Shown here: positions 12,532 through 19,093 of the stretch, one piece after another
Layout: every line of letters begins with the position of its first letter
How positions within the stretch are numbered: the first letter of the stretch is position 1
Assembly (NCBI RefSeq): GCF_016102005.1
Contig: NZ_JACFPL010000001.1
Span: 620,001 to 684,000, forward strand
Length of the DNA: 64,000 bases
Direction of reading: 5' to 3'
Origin: Bifidobacterium choladohabitans
Lineage (GTDB): Bacteria; Actinomycetota; Actinomycetes; Actinomycetales; Bifidobacteriaceae
Notes under the pieces: generated by a model
What the model saw: only the letters and a program-made list of their open reading frames with translations
Told to the model about the DNA's origin: nothing
Database searches by the model: none
Program-made: the position numbers and the translations under genes

Positions 12532-13884
12532 TCACTGCCCTTGGTCAGGCAAAACTTCCGGAGCGGTCAGCTCCCTGATATTGCCCTTGTCTGAATCGAT
12601 CATGTCGACCGAATCGATGACCTTGGAGGGATCCATCTGCTGCAGCTTGCGGGCGGTGACCAGAACGCGCGACTCCAAAGAGGAGGCGAACTTGTTGTAG
12701 GCGGTCACCGTGGCGGTGATGGAACGGCCCAGTTTGTTGGCCCGATCGCCCAGAACCACAAAACGGTCATAGAGCTCGTGGGTGAGCGTAAAGAGGGTGC
12801 GGGCGTCCTCGGACAGGTTCTGCTGCTGCCAGGCGTAGGCCACCGACTTGAGCACAGCCCAGAGGGTCACCGGCGAGGTCAGGGCCACTTTCTGTGCGAA
12901 AGCGTCGTCCATCAGGGTGGGATCCACCTCCAGGGCGGCTTGCAGAAGGGAGTCGTTGGGGATGAAGGCCACCACAAAGTCCGGGGCCGTATCGAAGGCG
13001 TTCCAATACTCCTTGTCGGCCAGGGCCTTGACGTGCTCGCGCAGGGCCCGGGCATGCGCCTTGAGCAGCTCGTCACGACGGTGCAGTTCGTCATCGGAAG
13101 CGGCGTCGGGGATCTCGCAGGCCCGCTGATAGTCGGAATAGGGAGCCTTTGCATCGATAGGAATGGTCTTGCCGCCGGGTAGATGAACCACCATGTCGGG
13201 ACGCAGAACGCGGCCATCCGAGGCGGTGACCACAACCTGGGTGTCGAAGTCGACATGCTCCAAGAGCCCAGCAGACTCGACAATATTCCTGAGCTGAGCC
13301 TCGCCCCAGGCGCCGCGTACCTTGTTGTTGCGCAGGGCCGAAGCCAAAGAGCTGGTCTCCTTGTCCAGTCTCCCCTGCTGCTCGCCCAGACTCTTCAGCT
13401 GCTGCCCCAGGGAGCCCATCTCCTGCTTGCGGCCCTCCTCGATCTGGGCCACCTTGTGCTGGAGGGCGTCCAGATTCTTCTGCACTGGGGCCAGAGCCGA
13501 GAGCACCTTGCTCTCCTCCTCGAGATTCTGAGCCTGCCTGCGCCGCTTCTCCTCTTCCTGAGCCTGTGCACGGCGGCGCTCCTGCTCGATTCTGATCTGC
13601 TCGGCCTGCTGGGCTTGGGCCAGCTGGGACTTGACAAAGGAGAGCTCGCGGTTCAGGCCGTCCACCTTGGTCCGTGCCTCCACCAGAGCCGCATCGGATC
13701 CATGGAGCCGTTCCTGGGCCTGATCCAGCTGCGAGCGCAGCTCATCCACCTGGCCGTCGGACCCCATGCCGACGGCCCTTCGACCCTGGGCGCGACCCAG
13801 CACATATCCGGCCAGTCCTCCCAGGACTATACCGATCAGCAGGAGAAGCACCACCATGACCACCGATGACGTAGAATCGAACAT
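12532..13884 (-). CDS. rmuC: DNA recombination protein RmuC
   Basis: RmuC limits inversions and other rearrangements; it is a predicted membrane-anchored nuclease-fold protein. The 450-residue product has an N-terminal transmembrane helix (VVMVVLLLLIGIVLGGLAGYVL, shown here only by its residues 9-30), a long coiled coil (about 45-190) rich in Gln, Glu and Arg, and the RmuC core: NNKVRGAWGEAQLRNIVE, RPDMVVHLPGGKTIPIDAKAPY, and the WNAFDTAPDFVVAFIPNDSLL block with its PIDAK nuclease-like motif. The ATG at 13884 is preceded by AGGAGG 13 nt upstream, rather far, but no in-frame start is nearer. It is transcribed away from the P-type ATPase homologue. Confidence 0.92.
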   Translation of the reverse strand: MFDSTSSVVMVVLLLLIGIVLGGLAGYVLGRAQGRRAVGMGSDGQVDELRSQLDQAQERLHGSDAALVEARTKVDGLNRELSFVKSQLAQAQQAEQIRIEQERRRAQAQEEEKRRRQAQNLEEESKVLSALAPVQKNLDALQHKVAQIEEGRKQEMGSLGQQLKSLGEQQGRLDKETSSLASALRNNKVRGAWGEAQLRNIVESAGLLEHVDFDTQVVVTASDGRVLRPDMVVHLPGGKTIPIDAKAPYSDYQRACEIPDAASDDELHRRDELLKAHARALREHVKALADKEYWNAFDTAPDFVVAFIPNDSLLQAALEVDPTLMDDAFAQKVALTSPVTLWAVLKSVAYAWQQQNLSEDARTLFTLTHELYDRFVVLGDRANKLGRSITATVTAYNKFASSLESRVLVTARKLQQMDPSKVIDSVDMIDSDKGNIRELTAPEVLPDQGQ

Positions 13885-14060
13885 ATGTTCTAGTAAACCT
13901 CCTGCACTGGACCCGGAAACCAGATCGGCGCGGCAGGCTGCCGGTGATAATTGGAGAATTCGTTTTTTCCGCAAGGAATCGGCCTTAAGACCGGTGCCGG
14001 ACCGCAATAAAGGGCAGAATAGGAAATATCAAGGGGTTGGAGCAAGACCGAAGGAGATCC

Positions 14061-16136
14061 GTGGGTATCGATATCTTCCTGGCGATAGCCGATCTGGTCG
14101 TGGCCTGTGCGGTCACCTGGCTGATCATCTGGTACTTCCTTATGCCGTCGGCCCACACCAGCGACCAGGATGCAGCCGCGGACTCCCCGACCAACCGCTC
14201 CTGGCGCGATCCCGAGGACTGGGGCAAATGGGGGGCCGATCTGGACTCCCGCAGCCACCGTCTGCTCAGGCCGACCATCGTAAGTGCCCTGCTGACCGCG
14301 CCCGTTCTGGTTCTGGATCTGTTCGACCGCTTCGGCCCCGATCTGATTCCCTCCTGGCTGACCAGCCCCTGGGTCCAGGCCATTCTGATAACCCCGGTCA
14401 TCTTCTACTGCGGCCGCGGAATACTCATGGACGGGTGGACGGCCATGACCGAGCACCGCTGCAGCCCCGATCTTCTGGCCATGCTGGCCACAAGCCTGGC
14501 CTACCTGTACAGCCTTGCCACCTGCCTGGCCGGGTCCCTGCTGCCTGAGGGCTCCCGATCCCCCTACTTCGATCTGGTCGGCGTGGTCATCACCCTCCTC
14601 TTACTGGCCCGGGTCATCGGCACCAGAATGGAAGCCTCCCTGGTGGCCTCCTTGAACCACCTGACAGAGATCCGTCCAGCCTCAGGTCTGGTGGCCGATT
14701 CCGAACATCCGCAGACGGTTCCCGCCCAAATCCGTGCACGTGACCGGATCCGCCCAGGCGATCTGCTCCTGGTACGCACAGGAGAGCGTCCAGCCGCCGA
14801 TGGGGTTGTGGAGTCAGGGTCGGCCCTGGTGGACGACAGCGAGCTGACCGGCGGTGAACGACCCCGGCCATGCGGACCCGGCGACCGAATCCTGGCCTCC
14901 AGCAAGGTCCTGGAGGGCCGACTGTCCATCCGCGTGGATGCCGCAGGCGACAACACCTATGCAGCCAGGCTCGTGAAAATCATCCCCCAGGCCCTGGTCG
15001 AGCGATCCCCCGCCATGCGCAGGTTGGATCGTATCGTCCATACAGCCATCGCCCTGATCATGATTCTGGCTGCTTGGACCTTCATGCTCTGGCTCATGCT
15101 GGGACCGCAACCTCACCTGGCCCACGCTGTAGGCAATGCCGTCTGTGTGCTGACCATCGCCTGCCCCGCCGTCGCAGCCATGACCATCCCCATGGCCTTC
15201 CGAACCAGCCTGGAGACGGGCCTGGCCCATGGTCTGCTCTTCACCTCGCCACGGGCCATGAACCACCTGGGCCGGGTACGCAGCCTGATCCTGGACGACT
15301 CCTCTCTGCTGGATCCCGGCGACTCGGAGGGCCAGGGGGTCAAGGCGGAATCCCTGACCCGGACCGCCACCCATCTACGTTCCCTGCGGGTACGCAGCCT
15401 GATCCTGGATGGGAGCCGACAGCCGGACGACAGGATTGAGCGGGCAGCCCGTCAGGCGGGTGTGGATATGCTGATCACCCGTCTGACCCCCGAGCGCAAG
15501 CGCGAGTGCATGGATCGGCTCAATCACGACCTGACCCGGACCAGCAGAGGCATCCCAGCGGATCGGACCGGTCAAGACACCGCCTCCGCCGCAAAGCAGG
15601 GGCGAACCAGCCTGGTGGCTCTGGCGGCTGGGACCACAGCGGATCCCGGGCTGACGGACAGAGCACAGGTGGGCATCACGTTGGGTCCAAAACTCCAGGC
15701 TGACACGGACGATGCCGCAGACGACATCGCCCTGCCGCAGCCGGACCTGATCCTGCACCAGGGCGACCTGGACGGGACCAGCAGGGCCATAGAACTGAGC
15801 CGAGCCACCACCCGGGTCATCAGGCAGAACCTGACCTGGTCCACCATCTACAACATCATCGCCCTGGTGATTGCCACCGGAATCTGCCAACCTTTCCTGG
15901 GCTGGATGCTCAACCCCATGATCGCAGCAGTAACAGGGGCCCTATCCACCATCCTGGCCATGCTCAACGTTCGTCGTCTGCACCGGCTGCGGCACCTGCG
16001 CCGCCGCTGGCTGCACCTCGCCCTGATCGACACGGACCAGCTTCCGACAGTCGCTGCACGGCGCCCTCAGATCATCGTCGACAGCCAGTGGGAGTCCATG
16101 CAAGAGGGCAAGGACCCGGCTGCAGCCATGGATTGA
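14061..16136 (+). CDS. Degenerate P-type ATPase homologue, probable pseudoenzyme
   Basis: A 691-residue membrane protein built like a heavy-metal (P1B) ATPase: N-terminal helices, an A-domain, the mid-membrane TIACPAVAAM segment (C368-P369), a P-domain remnant, and the closing helices with NPMIAAVTGALSTILAMLN. The catalytic set is broken. The A-domain TGE is TGG (263-265). The DKTGT phosphorylation motif reads DDSSL (412-416): the Asp may remain but KTGT is gone. GDGxND reads AAGTTA (522-527). Only about 110 residues separate these two P-domain points, too few for the nucleotide-binding domain, and no N-terminal metal-binding domain is present. The frame is intact and GC-rich like its neighbours, so it is not simply decaying. 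The GTG at 14061 follows AAGGAG closely; a TTG at 14037 is less likely. Function unknown. Confidence 0.85.
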   Translation: MGIDIFLAIADLVVACAVTWLIIWYFLMPSAHTSDQDAAADSPTNRSWRDPEDWGKWGADLDSRSHRLLRPTIVSALLTAPVLVLDLFDRFGPDLIPSWLTSPWVQAILITPVIFYCGRGILMDGWTAMTEHRCSPDLLAMLATSLAYLYSLATCLAGSLLPEGSRSPYFDLVGVVITLLLLARVIGTRMEASLVASLNHLTEIRPASGLVADSEHPQTVPAQIRARDRIRPGDLLLVRTGERPAADGVVESGSALVDDSELTGGERPRPCGPGDRILASSKVLEGRLSIRVDAAGDNTYAARLVKIIPQALVERSPAMRRLDRIVHTAIALIMILAAWTFMLWLMLGPQPHLAHAVGNAVCVLTIACPAVAAMTIPMAFRTSLETGLAHGLLFTSPRAMNHLGRVRSLILDDSSLLDPGDSEGQGVKAESLTRTATHLRSLRVRSLILDGSRQPDDRIERAARQAGVDMLITRLTPERKRECMDRLNHDLTRTSRGIPADRTGQDTASAAKQGRTSLVALAAGTTADPGLTDRAQVGITLGPKLQADTDDAADDIALPQPDLILHQGDLDGTSRAIELSRATTRVIRQNLTWSTIYNIIALVIATGICQPFLGWMLNPMIAAVTGALSTILAMLNVRRLHRLRHLRRRWLHLALIDTDQLPTVAARRPQIIVDSQWESMQEGKDPAAAMD

Positions 16137-16208: not shown

Positions 16209-18986
16209 TCAGCGAGGTTGGGTCTGATCCTGATCGTCGCCCCGCGCGGCATGACGGCCACGACCACCATCGTGTCCGCCATCGCCGGCATCGGCATCGC
16301 CATCAGCAGTCACATCGTCGACCGTGACCGAGTCATCGACCAGATTCTCAGTGGGCCAGGCGGTCAACTCCAGATGGTCGCCACCGGTCTGGTCCACCAG
16401 GACCGTGTCGCCGTCGTGGACCTTGCCAGCCAGCAGCATCCTGGCCAGCTGATCGCCCACCTCGGTCTGGACCAACCTACGCAGAGGACGAGCGCCGAAG
16501 GCCGGATCGTAGCCCATGTTGGCCAGCCACTCCCTAGCGGAGTCGGTGACATCAAGGGTGATGCGCCGGTCGGTCAACCGCTGGGCCACCTGCTTGACCT
16601 GGATGTCCACAATGGAACCCAGTTCGTCGCGGGTCAGCGGATGGAAGATGACAAGATCGTCCAGCCGGTTGATGAACTCGGGCTTGAAGTTGGCGTGCAC
16701 CGCGTCCATAACGGCCTTGCGCTTGGCCTCCTCATCCAGGTCGTCCCGGACCAGGAACTGCGAGCCCAGGTTGGAGGTCATGATCAGGATGGTGTTCTTG
16801 AAGTCCACCGTCCTGCCCTGGCCATCGGTCAGCCTGCCGTCGTCCAGAACCTGCAGGAGCAGATCGAAGACCTCAGGGTTGGCCTTCTCCACCTCGTCGA
16901 AGAGGACCACCGAGTAGGGCCGCCGACGTACGGCCTCGGTCAGCTGGCCGCCCTCCTCATAGCCCACGTAGCCGGGAGCAGCACCGATCAGACGAGAGAC
17001 CGAGGCCTTCTCCATGTACTCTGACATGTCGATGCGGACCATGGCCTTCTCGTCGTCGAAGAGGAAGTCGGCCAGGGCCTTGGCCAGCTCCGTCTTGCCT
17101 ACTCCGGTGGGGCCCAGGAACATGAAGGATCCGGTGGGCCTGTCAGGGTCGGCGATGCCGGCACGCGAGCGCCGGACCGCGTCGGATACCGCATGGATGG
17201 CCTCCTGCTGGCCGACCACCCGCTTGCCCAGGTAGTCCTCCATATGCAGGAGCTTCTCGTTCTCGCCCTCCATGAGCCGTCCTACGGGAATCCCAGTCCA
17301 GTCAGAGACGATCTCAGCCACGGAATCCGCATCAACATGGTCGGGAACCATGGGCTCCTGCGCCGGACCGCCGGCGATGTCAGCCCCATCGGGACCAGCA
17401 TCATTGGCGGTATTCTTGGCCTGCTCGGCGGCGTTCTCCGCCTGGGCCAGCTGCTTGCGAATGCCAGGAATCTCCCCGTAGAGGATGCGGGAGGCCTTCT
17501 CCAGATCACCCTCGCGGGTGGCCTTGTCGGCCTCGACCCGCTTGGCGTCCAGCTGGGCACGCAGGTCGCCGACCTTGTTGTGACCGGCCTTCTCATTCTC
17601 CCAACGGGCCTTGAGACCGCCCAGCTTCTCGCGGGAGTCCGCCAGTTCGGCCTGCAGCTTGCTCAGGCGGTCCTTGGAGGCCGGGTCATCGGCCTTCTTC
17701 AGCTGCATCTCCTCCATCTCCAGACGGGTGACGCGGCGTTGAAGCTCGTCGATCTCCTCAGGCTGGGAATCCAGCTCCATCCGCAGGTGGGCAGCGGCCT
17801 CATCAACCAGGTCGATGGCCTTGTCAGGCAGCTGACGACCCGAGATGTACCGGTTGGACAGGGTGGCCGCAGCCACCAGGGCATCATCCCCGATGGTCAC
17901 CTTGTGGTGGGCCTCGTAACGCTGCTTGAGACCACGCAGGATGGCCACGGTATCCTCCACGGAGGGCTCACCCACGAAGACCTGCTGGAAGCGGCGCTCC
18001 AGAGCCGGGTCCTTCTCGATGTTCTCACGGTACTCGTCCAGGGTGGTGGCGCCGATCAGGCGCAGTTCGCCCCTGGCCAGCATGGGCTTGAGCATGTTGC
18101 CTGCGTCCATGGACCCTTCGGCGGCACCCGCCCCGACGATGGTGTGGATCTCATCGATGAAGGTGATGACCTGACCGTTGGCGCTCTTGATCTCGTTGAG
18201 GACGGCCTTGAGGCGCTCCTCGAATTCGCCACGGTACTTGCTGCCAGCCACCATGGAGCTCAGGTCCAGGGAGATCAGCCTCTTGCCTTGCAAAGTTGTG
18301 GGCACATCACCGGCCACGATGCGTTCGGCCAGACCCTCGACCACGGCTGTCTTGCCCACACCGGGCTCGCCGATAAGGACCGGGTTGTTCTTGGTCCGCC
18401 GGGACAGGATCTGCATGACACGACGAATCTCCTGGTCCCTGCCGATGACCGGGTCCAGCTTACCCTCCTTGGCCTGGGCGGTCAGATCGGTGGAGTACTT
18501 CTCCAGGGCCTTGTAGGTGCCCTCGGCATCCGGGCTGGTCACCTTGGCACCGCCGCGCACCTGGGGCACGGCCTTGCGCAGGGTGTCGGCCTGCAGGCCG
18601 TTCCGGTTCAGGATATCGGCGGCCTGCGAGGGACCCTGGGCGATGGCGATGAGCAGGTGCTCGGTGGAGACGTATTCGTCCCCCATGGCCTGCATTTCCT
18701 TCTCGGCCTGAGCCAGAGCCATGCTGAGCTGACGGCTGGCATCGGGCTGCGAAGCCGTGGATCCGCTGGCTGACGGCAGAGCCACCAGGGCCTGACGGAC
18801 CTCGGCTCCGACCCGTTGACTGTCACCACCTGCTGCCTGAATCAGTCCGGGGACTACGCCAGACTGCTGACGCAGCAGGGAGTCCAGCAGGTGGAGCACA
18901 TCCACCTGGGGGTTGCCGGCCGCCGAGGCCGACTGGATGGCATCGCCGATGGCCTGCTGAGCCATGGTGGTGAAGTTTTCGTTCAT
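16209..18986 (-). CDS. clpB: ATP-dependent disaggregase ClpB
   Basis: ClpB is a hexameric AAA+ protein that rescues aggregated proteins with DnaK. The 925-residue product has the N-domain (1-150), AAA-1 with [15 protein letters not shown] and Walker [11 protein letters not shown], the coiled-coil middle domain (about 400-530), and AAA-2 with [13 protein letters not shown] and [10 protein letters not shown]. The C-terminal end is extended by about 60 residues rich in Asp, Gly and His, ending in QTQPR. The middle domain holds a short insert ([15 protein letters not shown]) between the coiled coil and AAA-2. The ATG at 18986 follows GGAGG by 7 nt. A HAIR operator sits about 110 bp upstream, which points to HspR control of heat induction. 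Confidence 0.97.
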
Positions 18987-19093
18987 AGAGCATCCTCCAA
19001 CATTCTTGGCGGGGCCAGCCAAATCACTCACCCGGCCTCGTCACGGTTTCATCTGTCTTCTACAACAGCGAAAGGAGGATACCTATTCCCAAA

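Follow-up and report, generated by a model that had tools for sequence, protein, structure and literature searches.

The 64,000-nucleotide stretch of Bifidobacterium choladohabitans DNA analysed here (the window; contig NZ_JACFPL010000001.1, positions 620,001 to 684,000) carries a gene for a relative of the CopA-type copper-transporting P-type ATPases that has neither a nucleotide-binding domain (N-domain) nor the catalytic motifs. Sequence comparison indicates that this gene is the orthologue of proteins of other Bifidobacteriaceae that have lost the N-domain only, and on balance we think it somewhat likely that those N-domain-less (N-less) proteins are Cu(+) pumps fed by a small phosphoryl donor and that the window gene is a catalytically retired derivative of them. 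An N-domain is regarded as part of what defines a P-type ATPase, and a lineage in which the catalytic residues are kept but the domain that binds adenosine triphosphate (ATP) is gone raises the question of its fuel. If the reading is true, no ATP-binding domain is needed for the P-type cycle to run. The lineage is apparently undescribed: among the papers listed from the open full-text literature, which most subscription papers lie outside, none dealt, judging by title and opening of the abstract, with a P-type ATPase without an N-domain.

To define the N-less group, we searched 189 genomes of the family and called a protein N-less when it matched the window protein in a single piece without a break at the N-domain. 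This gave 49 N-less genomes (41 of Bifidobacterium proper, 4 of Alloscardovia and 4 of a further genus), all 49 loci of which were read. TGES, CPC, DKTGT and GDG[IV]ND are present in 49 of 49, with 97-159 residues between DKTGT and GDGxND compared with 217 in the CopA of G000. Across the 79 loci of a named collection, this spacing is 97-170 residues in 13 Bifidobacteriaceae, 82 in two Bacteroidales genomes, the first to be found in that order, and 181-238 in 59 others, the remaining 5 loci being window-type copies that have no DKTGT. The missing part is also visible with the Pfam Hydrolase model of the phosphorylation domain (P-domain), whose positions 1-191 are matched by two ordinary proteins, while in four N-less proteins the match begins at position 91-95 and ends at 191.

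Counted as distinct sequences, DKTGT, [TS]GE, GDGxND and CPC occur in 50/50 Bifidobacteriaceae and 15/15 Bacteroidia. The motif of the actuator domain (A-domain) takes the form TGES in all 50 of the former but in only 3 of the 15 latter, the other 12 having TGEP, TGEA or SGEP with the glutamate retained. CPC, YN, MxxSS and PxxK are found in all 65 (YN by plain match; a stricter pattern missed two), and across 46 aligned proteins (31 ordinary ones plus 13 Bifidobacteriaceae and 2 Bacteroidales N-less proteins) the columns of the copper site and of catalysis do not vary. Twelve close N-less pairs show ratios of nonsynonymous to synonymous substitution rates (dN/dS) of 0.02-0.23, that is, purifying selection, and the N-less protein of B. 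callitrichos (L098) retains cupredoxin and YHS domains. All four N-less relatives tested pass the curated cut-off of the NCBIfam Cu-ATPase model TIGR01511, so family annotation hides the missing N-domain. An assembly or annotation artefact was rejected, the pattern being common to 49 Bifidobacteriaceae genomes and 15 Bacteroidia with differing linkers. The long linkers that precede GDGxND in some bifidobacteria were set aside as a replacement domain: their length is highly variable and the Bacteroidales proteins have none.

A capless domain of the haloacid dehalogenase (HAD) type resembles the HAD phosphatases that act on phosphoproteins. That resemblance favours the idea that N-less proteins are not pumps and that the capless domain acts on a copper channel or sensor, either as a phosphatase or as a switch gated by phosphorylation. 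We consider this decidedly improbable. The A-domain glutamate motif, which serves hydrolysis of the phosphorylated E2 state in the pump cycle, and the three-helix copper site made of CPC, YN and MxxSS are retained in 65/65 N-less sequences, and N-less proteins stand in place of CopA in Bifidobacterium, not beside it, among the matches listed.

We addressed this replacement by using the window genome's own CopA as a query, a CopA-like match being one of 53-69% identity in Bifidobacterium proper. Among the matches listed for 112 Bifidobacterium-proper genomes, 41 had an N-less protein, 46 a CopA-like protein, none both and 25 neither (hypergeometric 1.5e-13, ignoring kinship). Eight of the CopA-like cases had a partial best match; when read, they showed an N-domain-type spacing of 232-299 residues. 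Another full-length Cu-ATPase over the TIGR01511 cut-off is present in 3 of the 49 N-less genomes (G062, G117 and G172). Because N-less proteins and CopA exclude each other among the matches listed, the N-less protein of Bifidobacterium proper looks, from gene content, like a working substitute for CopA. As a separate observation, G117 has seven match rows to the Cu-ATPase model, two of them from its N-less protein, the most of any of the 49 N-less genomes, and a plasmid, a mixed culture or contamination are possible explanations.

The loss of the N-domain is not confined to bifidobacteria, and the trees indicate that it recurred independently in Bacteroidales. In one Bacteroidales family at least 13 of 299 genomes carry N-less proteins at E 1e-100 or better, and none of these 13 has a second match at that level. 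A single ancient origin of the 13 proteins was rejected by the approximately unbiased test (p-AU 0.0011, or 0.00016 without the most divergent). The tree of this family holds at least 4 state changes, in which loss and regain are indistinguishable by counting alone. The N-less protein of G211 groups with the ordinary CopA of G484 (99/97) and is 79% identical to it over residues 1-424. A sample of 345 genomes from the class, 94 of them with a match, added two further N-less proteins (G679 and G708) among the 11 fetched besides that of G211, a number that is a lower bound. The N-less, motif-intact copper ATPases of Bacteroidia, of more than one origin, are at loci L108, L111, L167, L168, L171-L179, L186, L205, L217 and L219.

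The N-less proteins also share a substitution in the P-domain motif (S/T)GD. SGD is present in 56 of 57 distinct N-less sequences (43 Bifidobacteriaceae and 14 Bacteroidia) compared with 3 of 95 ordinary ones, a count that omits eight N-less loci read later and the ordinary L140, which has TGD by eye. On a 63-row tree, N-domain loss accounts for six changes and threonine to serine for five. In five independent pairs the serine accompanies the loss in four or five and never the reverse, so that convergence of this substitution with N-domain loss is suggestive, not proven. The signature bears on the possibility that N-less proteins use ATP directly, the P-domain alone holding the triphosphate at low affinity, which would be enough at millimolar cellular ATP. 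DKTGT, (S/T)GD, PxxK and GDGxND, which hold phosphate in ordinary pumps, are indeed intact. However, SGD in nearly all N-less sequences suggests an altered donor site, and why a pump would repeatedly discard its grip on ATP is left unexplained, and we regard direct use of ATP as unlikely.

Another possibility is that N-less proteins still use ATP with the help of a second polypeptide, a further P-type ATPase or an unrelated factor, that provides in trans the N-domain or a substitute for it in binding ATP. In its favour, the phosphorylation core is retained and the Cu-ATPase model finds additional, more remote matches in most N-less genomes. We looked for such a domain with single-sequence queries, the first being the N-domain of the window genome's CopA run against 33 N-less genomes with no ordinary-CopA control genome. 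It found no match at E 0.1 in 19 of the 20 Bifidobacteriaceae N-less genomes. In the twentieth, G032, it matched a 639-residue frame of P-type size (1.5e-8) and, weakly, a 557-residue frame. Of 13 Bacteroidales N-less genomes, four gave no match and nine weak ones, mostly in frames of P-type size. With the N-domain of the ordinary G484 protein as query, 12 of these 13 showed weak matches (E 5e-4 to 0.099), in frames of 539-707 residues plus one of 126, whereas the ordinary-CopA controls G484 and G504 scored 2.8e-83 and 7.2e-52. The matching frames of G211 and G212 read as P-type ATPases (L169 and L170). Moreover, at E 1e-50 the N-less protein is the sole TIGR01511 match in six N-less genomes (G121, G135, G071, G115, G144 and G078). 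An N-domain encoded elsewhere was rejected in that no close match was found within the sensitivity of single-sequence searches, and supply of ATP binding in trans strikes us as a poor prospect, slightly less probable than direct use of ATP.

We hypothesize instead that the fuel is a small phosphoryl donor. In other Bifidobacteriaceae the orthologue of the window protein has lost the N-domain but retains the copper site (CPC, YN, MxxSS), the A-domain glutamate, DKTGT, S/TGD, PxxK and GDGxND. With the residues of the cycle in place and the ATP-binding domain the sole loss, N-less proteins may still cycle through an aspartyl phosphate. The donor would reach the bare P-domain and phosphorylate the aspartate without an N-domain, acetyl phosphate or another acyl phosphate being the most likely candidate. 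Acetyl phosphate fits this role since it is still hydrolysed by an H,K-ATPase whose ATP site is blocked by fluorescein isothiocyanate (FITC; PMC4215238) and is produced by the bifidobacterial phosphoketolase (PMC5315409). Acetate kinase is present in 15/15 N-less Bacteroidia. Beside the acetate kinase of G211 (G211:C42:1968-4050) and of 12 other N-less Bacteroidales we observed a phosphotransacylase-like frame of about 300 residues with a weak pta match; it may make another acyl phosphate.

The window gene would represent a later fate of this lineage. The initial annotation, made from the letters of the window, had described a 691-codon open frame with a P-type fold that has no N-domain, replaced motifs, and about 110 residues between the two P-domain motifs. 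All of these were borne out: the frame runs from its GTG to its TGA as given in the table below, TGG, CPA, DDSSL and AGTTAD stand where the motifs should be, and the DDSSL-to-AGTTAD spacing is 111 residues, while the corresponding distance in the genome's intact CopA is 217. The only Pfam match of the protein is E1-E2_ATPase (E 1.3e-30), the Pfam Hydrolase model of the P-domain has no match up to E 1, and N-domain columns are absent for it in alignments. TIGR01511 matches at 1.3e-60, below its cut-off. With respect to P1B-1 pumps, DKTGT, TGE, CPC and the N-domain are all wanting, and shared ancestry is seen from E1-E2_ATPase, TIGR01511 and the tree.

Features of the N-less gene and its surroundings in the window
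Feature	Position	Strand	Remark
rmuC homologue	12532..14007	-	upstream flank of the conserved site
Ribosome-binding site AAGGAG	14051..14056	+	read directly; 4 nt upstream of the GTG
P1B-type ATPase homologue without N-domain and with broken motifs	14061..16136	+	691 aa; GTG start, TGA stop
Extra N-terminal hydrophobic helix	14061..14141	+	residues 1-27
TGG replacing the A-domain TGE dephosphorylation motif	14847..14855	+	residues 263-265
CPA replacing the Cu-binding CPC of transmembrane helix 6 (TM6)	15162..15170	+	residues 368-370
DDSSL replacing the phosphorylation motif DKTGT	15294..15308	+	residues 412-416
Short segment at the usual N-domain insertion place of P1B ATPases	15309..15404	+	residues 417-448
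AGTTAD replacing GDGxND	15627..15644	+	residues 523-528
Conserved C-terminal tail QLPTVAARRPQIIVDS	16038..16085	+	residues 660-675
clpB homologue	16209..19031	-	downstream flank of the conserved site

The window genome belongs to a bee-associated genus, the Bifidobacterium asteroides/indicum group, whose members include B. asteroides, B. indicum and B. xylocopae. A search of 59 relatives found a homologue of the window gene in 27/27 genomes of this genus, and all 27 copies, the window's own included, share one site between two flanking genes that we take, from their sequences, to be rmuC and clpB. The site is shared with the N-less, motif-intact proteins as well: at 41 of their loci, rmuC adjoins the gene in 36 and both flanks lie within the fetched stretch in 21, and each of the three other genera supplies examples. 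The exceptions are L052 (clpB only), L069, L071 and L083 (xpt and trmH, without rmuC at the gene) and L072 (none). In a FastTree phylogeny built without N-domain columns and without window-type copies, the Bifidobacteriaceae N-less proteins form one clade beside the bifidobacterial CopA. When 7 of the 26 open window-type copies were included in a second tree (IQ-TREE), every one of them fell within the N-less clade (100/100). Joining them to CopA instead was rejected (p-AU 1.6e-6), and their placement beside the proteins of Bifidobacterium proper is weakly supported (83/68).

The common site and the nesting in the N-less clade point to orthology of the window gene with the N-less, motif-intact proteins. 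Because the window copies are nested among motif-intact proteins, the N-domain was lost first and the motifs decayed later, in the bee-associated genus. The initial annotation had named the two losses together; they were separate events. It had also proposed that orthologues with DKTGT and GDGxND would mark this copy as a recent wreck. Such orthologues exist, but they too are N-less, and the conclusion that was to follow from them does not hold. A CopA match is found beside the N-less copy in 27/27 genomes of this genus (in two pieces in G017 and G023); that of the window genome (L031) is the intact CopA for which the initial annotation had advised checking the rest of the genome, and it lies on another contig. 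It is somewhat likely that here the N-less copy, freed from pumping where normal CopA persists, lost its catalytic motifs stepwise and ended as a kept non-catalytic membrane protein.

The decay is graded among the 26 open copies. DKTGT is intact in none (0/26), the glutamate of TGE is present in 1/26, with the segment missing in 5/26, and the third residue of the CPC-type motif is Cys in 5/26 (G004, G011, G014, G015 and G018), three of which have GDS at the place of GDG. Asp412 and Lys480, the PxxK lysine, are each retained in 24/26, and the P-domain is thus eroded rather than erased. The five copies without the A-domain segment are those of G006, G007, G017, G021 and G023 (L017, L022, L023, L026 and L027), whose proteins consist of membrane helices and the P-domain remnant. 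Identity to the window protein is 85-100% for 13 copies (the window's own counted), about 55% for three and 30-45% for ten.

In agreement with the initial annotation, which supposed that selection keeps the protein, the pairwise dN/dS (Nei-Gojobori, our own script) has a median of 0.126 over the 78 pairs of the 13 close copies, being about 0.075-0.12 in the membrane parts, the A-domain and the C-terminal tail. Constraint falls on the N-terminal helix, the membrane core, the tail and, in most copies, the A-domain. Presence in 27/27 genomes together with this low dN/dS makes a chance observation implausible and means that the gene is a selectively kept protein and not a recent wreck, and a recent pseudogene was rejected on the same two grounds. 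A gene that is simply decaying would account for the missing catalytic motifs, for the weak constraint on residues 470-560 of the P-domain remnant (dN/dS 0.23, the least constrained region measured) and for the copy of G009 being split over two frames. Against an open frame at the same site in 26/27 genomes and the dN/dS values above, such decay is extremely improbable. The split copy of G009 (L032:3642-5589) occupies two overlapping frames and reflects either a frameshift mutation or a sequencing error.

Pumping and intramembrane copper sensing are both unlikely because the catalytic motifs, the second Cys and the TM8 Met are lost in most copies. The sensor had been proposed in the initial annotation. 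A metal sensor using the intramembrane copper site would be in keeping with the first CPC Cys, present in 23/26 copies, and with the TM7 Tyr (24/26) and Asn (26/26). Yet the second Cys is kept in only 5/26 and the TM8 Met in only 5/26, and the window protein shows no match to cupredoxin or YHS, domains that CopA L031 and the motif-intact relative L098 both have; these results weaken the idea, and we now hold it very unlikely. Our preferred but weakly supported view is that the window protein is a non-catalytic membrane protein, either partnering or modulating CopA or acting in the same way on copper handling.

Two conserved ends of the protein have counterparts outside the genus. The helix of residues 1-27 is the most conserved part among the 13 close copies, and a similar helix is found at the start of CopA and of the motif-intact N-less proteins inspected. 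The tail QLPTVAARRPQIIVDS is related to an EIIVDSQ stretch after the last helix of the motif-intact N-less protein of G032. We also observed that codons 1-30 (14061-14150) have a median synonymous rate (dS) of 0.046 compared with 0.28-0.50 in the other regions measured, for pairs passing the filter. The start of rmuC is divergent and lies about 50 bases upstream of the window gene, and a regulatory overlap is possible.

Several points weigh against N-less pumps driven by a small donor and a retired derivative in the window. No biochemical, structural or expression report was found for any N-less protein, and a single function of the window protein shared across the genus is uncertain given its five A-domain-less members. 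As for the fuel, acetyl phosphate is only a candidate donor. Acetate kinase does not discriminate between fuels because 9 of 14 control genomes match too, and phosphotransacetylase is over its cut-off in 2 of the 15 N-less Bacteroidia, with a weak match in 13. The N-domain searches are limited by their single-sequence queries and, in the first case, by the lack of a control, and they left weak matches in an 89-residue frame of G212 (E 0.003) and in the 126-residue frame, which is from G341 (E 0.099). The exclusion of CopA holds among the matches listed, where a weak second copy may be present; 25 of the 112 genomes are in neither class and the statistic takes no account of kinship. With so few independent pairs the sign test stays above 0.05 (p 0.06-0.125), the N-less protein L179 keeps TGD, and parts of the tree of the Bacteroidales family are weakly supported.

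A more general proposal would be that there is a class of non-ATPase P-type pumps, copper exporters that lost the N-domain several times in two phyla, are driven by acyl phosphates, bear SGD as the signature of the new fuel and include a bee-associated branch that became non-catalytic. Taken as a whole, this proposal is tentative and on the doubtful side. The N-less protein of G211 and the ordinary CopA of G484 form a natural before-and-after pair, suited to a direct test of the purpose of the N-domain and of acyl phosphates as fuel for ion pumps in cells.

Compared with known systems, the N-less proteins have the membrane domain, A-domain and P-domain in common with the CopA-type P1B-1 Cu(+)-ATPases (TIGR01511), of which solved relatives are the copper efflux ATPase 3rfu, CopA 3j09 and human copper-transporting ATPase 2 (7xuk). 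They differ in having no N-domain between DKTGT and SGD, and the window copy is in addition without the catalytic motifs. The nearest relative is the bifidobacterial CopA, whose group is sister to the N-less clade. CopA L031 and the N-less L098 both carry cupredoxin and YHS domains, but both of these are missing from the window copy, and L031 differs further in its normal N-domain. The C0 phosphatases of the HAD superfamily are, like the N-less pumps, built on a capless HAD core whose nucleophile is an Asp, whereas in the N-less pumps the P-type DKTGT is retained, an A-domain is present and the core is fused to a membrane domain for copper transport. Finally, the FITC-modified H,K-ATPase accepts acetyl phosphate when its N-domain cannot bind ATP (PMC4215238). 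There the small donor is a laboratory substitute in an intact ATPase, while in the N-less pumps the gene itself has no ATP domain.

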